NCBI GenBank assembly: GCA_001939945.1
Contig: MOEB01000004.1
Location: forward strand, 1-64,000
Direction: 5' to 3'
DNA length: 64,000 bases
From: Aerophototrophica crusticola
GTDB taxonomy: Bacteria; Pseudomonadota; Alphaproteobacteria; Azospirillales; Azospirillaceae
Numbering within the stretch: position 1 is the first letter of the stretch; every line of letters begins with the position of its first letter. Under the pieces are notes generated by a model. The model was given only the letters and a program-made list of their open reading frames with translations. It ran no database searches and was not told where the DNA came from. Below are positions 44,957-47,603 of the stretch, piece by piece. The translations under genes and the position numbers were made by a program.

Positions 44957-46287
44957 GCGACGCGCACCTTCGCGACCGCGACCAGGTCCATGCCGAGGAG
45001 GAGGCCGGCCCCCCCGTGTTCAGCGGGGAGGAGGGCGGGCCCACCCTGGTCACCTTCGGCTGCCGCCTGAACACCTATGAGTCGGAGGTGATGCGCACCC
45101 ACGCCCGCGCCGCCGGCCTGGGCGACGTGGTGATCGTCAATACCTGCGCCGTCACCTCCGAGGCCGAGCGGCAGGCCCGCCAGACCATCCGCAAGCTGCG
45201 GCGGGAGCGGCCGGGCGCCAAGATCGTCGTCACCGGCTGCGCCGCCCAGGTTAACCCGGACGGGTTCGCCGGCATGGCGGAGGTGGACCATGTGTTGGGC
45301 AACGACGCCAAGCTGACCGCCCAGCCCTGGGCCGATTTGGGCGCCGGGGCGACGGAGCGGGTGCGCGTCAACGACATCATGTCGGTGCGGGAGACGGCGG
45401 GCCACCTGATCCAGGGCATGGAGGGCCGCGCCCGCGCCTTCGTCCAGGTGCAGAACGGCTGCGACCACCGCTGCACCTTCTGCATCATCCCCTTCGGCCG
45501 CGGCAATTCGCGGTCCGTGCCCATGGGGGAGGTGGTGGCCCAGGTCCGCGCCCTGGTGGCCGCCGGCTACAATGAGGTGGTGCTGACCGGGGTGGACGTC
45601 ACCAGCTACGGCCCCGACCTGCCGGGCCAGCCGACCCTGGGCCAGATGGTGCGCCGCCTGCTGGCGGCCGTGCCGGAGTTGCCGCGCCTGCGCCTGTCCT
45701 CCCTGGACGCGGTGGAGATGGACGACGACCTCTGGCGCTTGGTGGCGGAGGAGCCGCGGCTGATGCCGCACCTGCATTTGTCGCTCCAGGCCGGGGACGA
45801 TTTGACCCTGAAGCGCATGAAGCGCCGCCACAGCCGCGCCGACGCGATATCCTTCTGCGAGAAGGCCCGGGCCCTGCGCCCCGACATGGTGTTCGGCGCC
45901 GACATCATCGCCGGCTTCCCGACGGAGACGGAGGAGATGTTCCAGAACACGCTGTGCAGCGTGGAGGAATGCGGCCTGACCTGGCTGCACGTCTTCCCCT
46001 ACAGCCCGCGCCCCGGAACCCCCGCCGCCAAGATGCCCCAGGTCCCCGGCCCCGTCCGCAAGGAGCGCGCCGCCCGCCTGCGTGCCCTGGGCGAGGTGCA
46101 GGTGCGCCGCCACCTGGAAGGGCTGGTGGGCACCACCGCCGACATCCTGTTGGAAAAGCCCACCCTGGGCCGCACCCCCACCTTCGCCCAGGTCACCCTG
46201 GACCGCCCGGGCGAGCCCGGCGCCATCGTCCGCGCCAGGCTGGCGGGGATTTCGGGCGACACCCTGACCGCCACGGTGCTGGACTGA
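44953..46287 (+). CDS. mtaB: tRNA t6A37 methylthiotransferase MtaB
   Basis: 444 residues from ATG 44953. N-terminal MTTase domain with [30 protein letters not shown] and VVTGCAAQ supplying three Cys for one iron-sulphur cluster; a radical-SAM centre [17 protein letters not shown] with CxxxCxxC; and a C-terminal TRAM-like domain. Adds a methylthio group to t6A at position 37 of tRNA. A ~25-residue N-terminal extension ([14 protein letters not shown]) is not typical. Its stop overlaps the ftsY start by one base. Confidence 0.94.
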
Positions 46288-47603
46288 TGTTCGACTGGTT
46301 CCGCAAGAAGAAGCCCGCCGAGCCCGCCAAGACGGAGGAGGCGAAGGCGCCGGAGGTGGTGCCGGACGCGACCCCCGCGGCGGTGCCGGAGACGGTGTCG
46401 GACAGTGATTCCGCCATCCCCCCTTCCACCGTCATCCCCGCGGAAGCGGGGACCCAGGAGCCCCAGGCACCGACCCCTCCGCCTGCCCCGGCCGACGTTG
46501 ACCCCGACGTCGATCCCCTGACCCTGGCTCCCGGCTTGCGCCGGGATGACAGGGAGGAGGATGGAGAGCCCACTCCCGAAGTCACCCCCGAACAGGCCGG
46601 CTTCGCCGCGGAGCCGGAGCAAGTTTCCCCCCTCCCGGCCGCCCTTGAGGCCGATGCCATCCCCGAGCTGGAGGACAAGCCGGAGAAGAAGAGCTGGTTC
46701 TCCCGGCTGAAGGATGGCCTGTCCAAGTCCACCTCCCGCCTGACGGAGGGGATCACCGGCATCTTCACCAAGAAGAAGCTGGACGATGAGGCGCTGGAGG
46801 AGCTGGAGGAGCTGCTGATCCGGGCCGACCTTGGCCCCACCACCGCGGCGCGGCTGACCGCCGGCCTCGCCAAGACCCGTTTCGGCAAGGAGGTCTCCCC
46901 CCAGGAGGTGCGCGAGTACCTGGCGGGGGAGGTGCAGAAGATCGTGGAGCCGGTGGCGAAGCCCCTCACCATTGATCCCGCCCGCAAGCCCCATGTGGTG
47001 CTGGTGGTGGGGGTCAATGGCACCGGCAAGACCACCACCATCGGCAAGCTGGCCCGCCAGCTCCGTGCCGAGGGCAAGACCGTGTGGATGGCCGCGGGCG
47101 ACACGTTCCGCGCCGCGGCCGTCAGCCAGCTGAAGATCTGGGGGGAGCGCACCGGCTGCCCCGTGGTGGCCCGGGACACGGGCGCCGACGCGGCCGGTCT
47201 GGCGTTCGACGCCTTCCAGCAGGCCAAGGCTGCCGGGGCGGACGTGCTGCTGATCGACACGGCCGGCCGCTTGCAGAACAAGGCCGGCCTGATGGACGAG
47301 CTGCGCAAGGTGGTCCGCGTCATCAAGAAGCTGGACCCGGACGCCCCCCACACCACCCTGCTGACCCTGGACGCCACCACCGGCCAGAACGCCCATTCCC
47401 AGGTGGAGGTGTTCAAGGACATGGTCGCCATCAACGGCCTGGTCCTGACCAAGCTGGACGGCAGCGCCCGCGGCGGCGTGCTGGTCGCCCTGGCGGAGAA
47501 GTTCAAGCTGCCCGTCCACTTCATCGGCGTGGGCGAGGGCGTCTATGATTTGCGTCCCTTCGAGGCGAAGGCCTTTGCCCGGGCCCTGGTGGGGCTGGAA
47601 TAA
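46287..47603 (+). CDS. ftsY: Signal recognition particle receptor FtsY
   Basis: 438 residues from ATG 46287. Residues 1-~130 are the variable acidic A domain; the NG core follows: FSRLKDGLSKSTSRLTEGI, G1 VVGVNGTGKTTTIGKLA, AAGDTFRAAAVSQLK, DTAGRLQNK, VLTKLDGSARGG, HFIGVGEGVYDLRPF. Docks ribosome-SRP complexes to SecYEG. Residues ~49-88 are encoded by an embedded repeat-like palindrome (46431-46550), which is unusual. Confidence 0.96.
   Translation: MFDWFRKKKPAEPAKTEEAKAPEVVPDATPAAVPETVSDSDSAIPPSTVIPAEAGTQEPQAPTPPPAPADVDPDVDPLTLAPGLRRDDREEDGEPTPEVTPEQAGFAAEPEQVSPLPAALEADAIPELEDKPEKKSWFSRLKDGLSKSTSRLTEGITGIFTKKKLDDEALEELEELLIRADLGPTTAARLTAGLAKTRFGKEVSPQEVREYLAGEVQKIVEPVAKPLTIDPARKPHVVLVVGVNGTGKTTTIGKLARQLRAEGKTVWMAAGDTFRAAAVSQLKIWGERTGCPVVARDTGADAAGLAFDAFQQAKAAGADVLLIDTAGRLQNKAGLMDELRKVVRVIKKLDPDAPHTTLLTLDATTGQNAHSQVEVFKDMVAINGLVLTKLDGSARGGVLVALAEKFKLPVHFIGVGEGVYDLRPFEAKAFARALVGLE
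46431..46550. repeat. GTCATCCCCGC...GGGATGAC repeat inside ftsY
   Basis: The outer ends GTCATCCC and GGGATGAC are exact reverse complements. The left part GTCATCCCCGCGGAAGCGGGG contains its own hairpin, and the right part CCCGGCTTGCGCCGGGATGAC another. This matches the layout of a widespread bacterial intergenic repeat. Length 120 bases keeps the ftsY frame open; it is translated as STVIPAEAGTQEP to LAPGLRRDDREE in the variable acidic domain. Confidence 0.7.

Follow-up and report, generated by a model that had tools for sequence, protein, structure and literature searches.

A CGTC-type REP dimer lying in frame within the ftsY gene of Aerophototrophica crusticola

The gene for the SRP receptor FtsY of A. 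crusticola carries within its reading frame a 120-nt segment that belongs to a dispersed repeat family. In our reading, which we hold with a probability of roughly 0.88, this segment is a CGTC-type REP dimer that is translated, within an A domain predicted to be disordered, into 40 additional residues and is tolerated there. A dispersed dimer of this type, a small repeat that carries no gene, would have come to lie in the A domain of ftsY and then have been read through in frame as 40 added residues. Its 120 nt leave the reading frame intact, being a multiple of three, no stop occurs in frame, and the A domain is a variable, unstructured stretch, which may explain why the insert is tolerated. 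The gene was studied in a window made up of the first 64,000 nucleotides of contig MOEB01000004.1, and was compared with the rest of the genome and with the genomes of relatives.

Structure of the element and its dispersed family

The dimer (46431..46550, + strand) consists of a left REP arm of 28 nt (46431..46458, + strand) with the hairpin TCCCCGC-GGAA-GCGGGGA, a spacer of 64 nt (46459..46522, + strand), and an inverted right REP arm, also of 28 nt (46523..46550, − strand), with a hairpin of the CCCGGC/GCCGGG type. An earlier note on this DNA had described exact terminal complements and internal hairpins in the 120-base segment, and both were recovered: the complements GTCATCCC (46431-46438) and GGGATGAC (46543-46550) extend over 8 nt, the two arms are 86% complementary overall, and each arm has its own hairpin with 7/7 stem pairs. 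The tag of the left arm is CGTC at 46430-46433, the C at 46430 preceding the arm, and the outer tag of the right arm is TGTC (GACA on the + strand). Both loops have 4 nt, and the tails, CCCAGG and GCCAGG, fit CCA. Folded as single-stranded DNA, positions 46425-46556 reach −36.5 kcal/mol, against −24.05 (sd 2.96) for shuffles (z −4.21), and none of 200 shuffles was equally good. An Rfam scan of the region 45900-47000 gave four matches, all under the gathering scores of their families.

The end tag, the 4-nt loop and the CCA-containing tail are shared with the CGTC REPs of Di Nocera, De Gregorio and Rocco (2013, PMC3733652). According to the part of that paper drawn on here, these repeats occur mostly as head-to-head dimers, mainly in alphaproteobacteria, without a dedicated transposase and in some cases inside genes, all of which resembles the present case, and TGTC and CCTC variants of the tag are known (PMC3733652). 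Their stems are described there as 8-9 bp, nearly always opening with complementary A-T pairs, and their loops as 4-5 nt, whereas the window element has 7 stem pairs, one short, and beyond these inner pairs the next A opposes C in the left arm or G in the right arm. The dimer is also longer as a coding insert, with 40 residues as compared to the 20-30 encoded by the dimers or groups that make up more than half of the inserts in the same part of PMC3733652. The window element is thus of a kind already known, an intragenic CGTC REP, its stem falling one pair below the described range. We found no report of a REP in ftsY in the literature searched, and the gene does not appear in the main text of PMC3733652 as drawn on here.

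The earlier note had proposed a search for further copies of the element, and these are present throughout the genome. With the pattern GTCATCCCSGCGNNNGCSGGGANCCAGG, allowing up to 3 mismatches, 29 REP arms were found genome-wide, and none with the reversed pattern that served as control. The best other copy of the ftsY segment, on contig C183, is 79% identical by BLAST over all 120 nt, spacer included, and further long copies show 75% and 71% identity. Ordinary A-domain coding sequence that is palindromic by chance could be considered, as Pro, Ala and Glu abound in the A domains of relatives, but the 29 arms against a control of zero, together with the 79% full-length copy elsewhere, rule this out, and its probability is practically nil. 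Among the 12 own-genome head-to-head dimers displayed from the BLAST loci, seven measure 116-123 nt and five 78-80 nt; 9/12 are open in frame −0, with 3-6/12 open in each of the other five frames, at a GC content of 0.66-0.75. All 11 genomes of the genus contain REP arms (13-297 each, with a slightly wider pattern), with one arm in five of them and none in six for the reversed control.

Single full palindromes of the form GTCATCCCGGC...GCCGGGATGAC also occur, at G000:C1:506605 and G000:C307:110063, a form that matches an element in the E2 linker of a relative (G002, see below). As a separate observation, the C183 copy sits in an open frame of 319 aa (L002:958-1914) without a Pfam match and is in the identical reading frame to the ftsY element; this frame is a candidate gene only.

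A Pfam scan of 20 own-genome frames that run across a repeat left 17 without a match, the 319-aa frame among them, and found a SAICAR synthetase, a DegT aminotransferase and sigma-70 regions in the other three. In each of these the domain begins only after the repeat, which may therefore precede the true start.

The REPINs of RAYT systems are dispersed units of two inverted REPs, and the window element shares this organisation, being likewise two inverted REPs in a dispersed family. Unlike REPINs accompanied by RAYT transposases (Bertels and Rainey 2011, PMC3116915), it is found in a genome where a profile search for PF01797 (Y1_Tnp, the RAYT transposase family) returned no match, in agreement with what the part of Di Nocera et al. 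2013 (PMC3733652) drawn on here says of CGTC REPs. Elsewhere, PF01797 was matched in one of the 11 genus genomes (24.5 bits) and in one of three further genomes, G064 (33.4 bits), and neither of these loci contained a REP arm, the best match having 6 mismatches, the same number as the reversed control gave. A RAYT protein as the mover was thus rejected, on the own genome without PF01797 and on the two loci of relatives without arms.

Coding status and the A domain

ftsY is essential in bacteria, and in the window it occupies 46287..47603 (+ strand), coding for 438 aa with the Pfam domains SRP54_N (residues 152-213) and SRP54 (residues 235-435). The frame is open throughout, REP dimer included, and the statement of the earlier note that the element lies in frame in the A domain and encodes about 40 residues proved exact, the insert being 40 codons, residues 49-88 (VIPAEAGTQEP...LAPGLRRDD). 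The start of the protein, MFDWFRKKK, lies upstream of the insert and is common to the window, Oleisolibacter albus and G064, and the GTPase core lies downstream. The open frame and the common start point to translation of the 40 residues, and the protein would presumably be both made and working.

The A domain was taken as residues 1-129 (46287..46673, + strand). AlphaFold2, run on an alignment of 18 sequences, gave pLDDT values below 50 for all of these residues, with the core scoring high for the most part (overall mean 73.1), and the insert therefore falls in a stretch predicted to be disordered. Without the insert, residues 1-137 have a net charge of −13. The insert itself has a net charge of −6, as does the corresponding 27-residue insert of G064, and 10 other own-genome dimers read in the VIPA-type frame have a mean charge of 0 (range −3 to +3). 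Descriptively, this acidity fits an adjustment to the acidic domain; the insert is probably a near-neutral filler, which may have drifted or been selected towards the character of its surroundings. A point against such a filler comes from E. coli, where FtsY truncated N-terminally (NG+1) has partial activity only, according to the part of PMC2780400 drawn on here, so the N-terminal region has some function, a point that bears on the region and not on the insert itself.

The element can be compared with the Rickettsia palindromic elements (RPEs), which, in the portion of PMC2229807 used here, are palindromic repeats of 105-146 bp lying in frame in conserved genes. That source, reviewing the work of Ogata et al. 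2000, states that an RPE-bearing guanylate kinase is translated and active, and it reports 19 Rickettsia reading frames with inserts, as against one convincing gene in the window genome. The Rickettsia parallel drawn by the earlier note turned out to be closer than was claimed, as RPE-6 and RPE-4 of Rickettsia conorii have been equated with CGTC-1 and CGTC-4 REPs, and Neisseria dRS3 likewise with CGTC REPs (PMC3733652, in the part drawn on here). RPEs are described for Rickettsia, and the window element is likened to them by description, the link to RPE-4 and RPE-6 being a statement of that paper. What was found in ftsY corresponds to an RPE-like coding palindrome, that is, an in-frame member of a dispersed family that is absent from this gene in most relatives scanned.

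ftsY in relatives and the origin of its arms

In the family search, 80 of 82 genomes had a FtsY match, with one locus each, and 79/80, all but L263, were readable; every position was scanned from the frame start to the GTPase motif, up to 1500 nt. L040 offered only 183 nt, and contig ends are the source of L034, L220 and L264. REP arms were found in 3/79 loci, namely the window (0 and 0 mismatches), O. albus (right arm only, 1 mismatch) and G064, a genome placed in another genus (2 and 3 mismatches). The other 76 had best matches with 5-8 mismatches, like the reversed control (5-9), so that the check on relatives proposed by the earlier note came out in favour of an insertion; the opposite outcome, with the residues in all relatives and no other copies of the DNA, was not seen. 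In a second set of named genomes, several of which are also in the family set, O. albus alone has an arm among 79/80 readable loci, the rest giving 5-10 mismatches and the control 5-11. The A domains of seven other genus genomes (L033-L039, L034 being cut), G065 and G076 contain no arm. A-domain length is too variable among relatives for an exact empty site to be drawn, but we infer that insertion, and not loss, made the difference in FtsY. In a plasmid collection only pieces of FtsY were found, with 60-80% identity.

The relatives show the gene in several states, intact, with one arm lost, decayed and acidified, or with the element absent. In O. albus the left arm has been lost and LDPRLRGDD is left, and in G064 (L195 / L265) there is a dimer of 81 nt with both arms partly decayed and an acidic peptide. 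In all three carriers the element is at about one place, shortly upstream of PEVT, and GAGCCTGYGGCYCTGG beside the right arm is common to O. albus and G064; this sequence may partly be of REP origin, because another G064 dimer (L286) is rather like it. O. albus grouped with G064 in the FtsY-only tree (89/90) and with the window in the two-gene tree (64/95), and a tree constrained to hold the three carriers together was not rejected (p-AU 0.267).

The shared place can be explained by one old insertion in the common ancestor of the carriers, the arms then being replaced on the spot by gene conversion, with REPs of the host as donors, a reading we regard as tentative. In favour of it, the five in-gene arms of ftsY are on average nearer to host REPs than to each orthologous arm, with mean distances of 3.6 (orthologues 6, 8), 4.0 (6, 7), 6.7 (7, 8), 3.7 (5) and 3.5 (5), the smallest difference being 0.3, in one arm. 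However, an arm's own host does not always come nearest: the window arms are as near or nearer to G064 REPs, of which 22 of 57 rows were sampled, with distances of 2.9 (own host 3.6) and 3.6 (own host 3.7), and the G064 right arm is at 6.8 from O. albus REPs as compared to 6.7 from its own host. The arms of G064 are, moreover, partly decayed instead of homogenised, and the arms are short and the cases few.

Separate insertions would be the other explanation: a REP would have arrived independently in each lineage, at a preferred position of the A domain, or an older REP would have been hit by a newer one; this is possible, though short of probable, and we consider the two accounts about equally likely. 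The window element falls in the 116-123 nt class of its genome, and the 81 nt of the G064 element resemble the dimers of its own genome, where complete dimers in 10 loci examined measure 79-82 nt, save for one pairing of 131 nt. In O. albus a GTCGT type prevails among the REPs, and the ftsY arm differs by 2 mismatches from the pattern that the commonest host arms match exactly; a scan for that pattern in G001, G064, G065 and G076 gave 17, 57, 68 and 0 matches, with 4, 1, 5 and 5 in the reversed controls. Against separate insertions, three landings within a few codons are unlikely without a target preference, and GAGCCTGYGGCYCTGG is common to O. albus and G064. A comparable case is recB of two Xanthomonas species, where different REPs lie at approximately the same site of an orthologous gene (PMC3733652, in the part drawn on here), but in another gene and lineage; here the orthologues are three for FtsY and, separately, four for E2.

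The E2 linker and the meaning of presumably translated REPs

To the own-genome frames we added 19 further frames over REPs in relatives, hand-picked from a list and scanned with Pfam. Three of them contained domains; a GTPase (L305) and an ABC transporter (L172) have the repeat before their domain, and in the E2 acyltransferase of G009 it falls between two domains, with the lipoyl domain at residues 7-79, the repeat at about 120-160 and the first listed E3-binding stretch at 184-218. REP elements are present in this linker in four of the five species compared (L316-L319, L326), as dimers of 119 nt in G009, 113 nt in G005 and 88 nt in G004, and as one 26-nt palindrome in G002; G008 has none. 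The best arms have 0, 1, 3, 4 and 6 mismatches in G009, G005, G004, G002 and G008, respectively (reversed controls 8, 8, 7, 9 and 8), the G002 element scoring 4 because it is a palindrome without a tail.

The spacers of the E2 elements align well, with identities of 27/31, 38/44 and 27/31 that refer to aligned columns only, as the lengths differ. The arms are identical at 18-25 of 28 positions; for the upstream flanks the identities range from 45/56 to 56/61, and for the downstream flanks from 62/78 to 66/77. From the alignment of spacer, arms and flanks, the E2 elements likely go back to one old insertion, since which the arms have changed no less than the sequence around them. The stems change between CCCCGC/GCGGGG and CCCGGC/GCCGGG on both sides, with pairing mostly kept, a pattern that, with the well-aligned spacers, also speaks for an old insertion followed by conversion.

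Alternatively, such two-sided changes could be compensatory, the hairpins being under selection as RNA or DNA structure in the gene, where they might, for example, make translation pause. Nine of the 12 in-gene arms of ftsY and E2 keep 7/7 pairs, and the fold of the ftsY element is better than that of its shuffles, but two arms keep 6 pairs and one, the right arm of G064 ftsY, has 4 plus 2 wobble pairs. Furthermore, O. albus has no left arm, 76/79 relatives scanned have no arm at all, and the detection of arms by REP likeness in itself favours intact stems; we thus find selected hairpins improbable.

Going back to the dimer as a tolerated insert, the earlier note had suggested that disordered domains may absorb repeats. 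This holds for the FtsY A domain and for the E2 linker, and as a general claim it has these two cases only; flexible linkers or loops have already been proposed as places tolerant of REPs (PMC3733652, in the part drawn on here). A wider and rather speculative proposal is that translated REP dimers in disordered linkers, as in FtsY and E2, keep their orthologous place while their sequence is rewritten towards the current REP types of the host. In-place rewriting by gene conversion is a possible route, and the part that is possibly new is that REPs translated in two proteins would have changed without leaving their place.

If this proposal is true, a dispersed repeat would drive concerted protein evolution across species, and even genera, in which paired stem switches change amino acids. 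Together, ftsY and the E2 linker form a small natural series in which intragenic REPs can be considered as relics, as re-inserted, or as rewritten by conversion. With its ftsY element, A. crusticola would offer a clear case beyond Rickettsia of repeat DNA turned into protein in a needed gene, a known but uncommon route.
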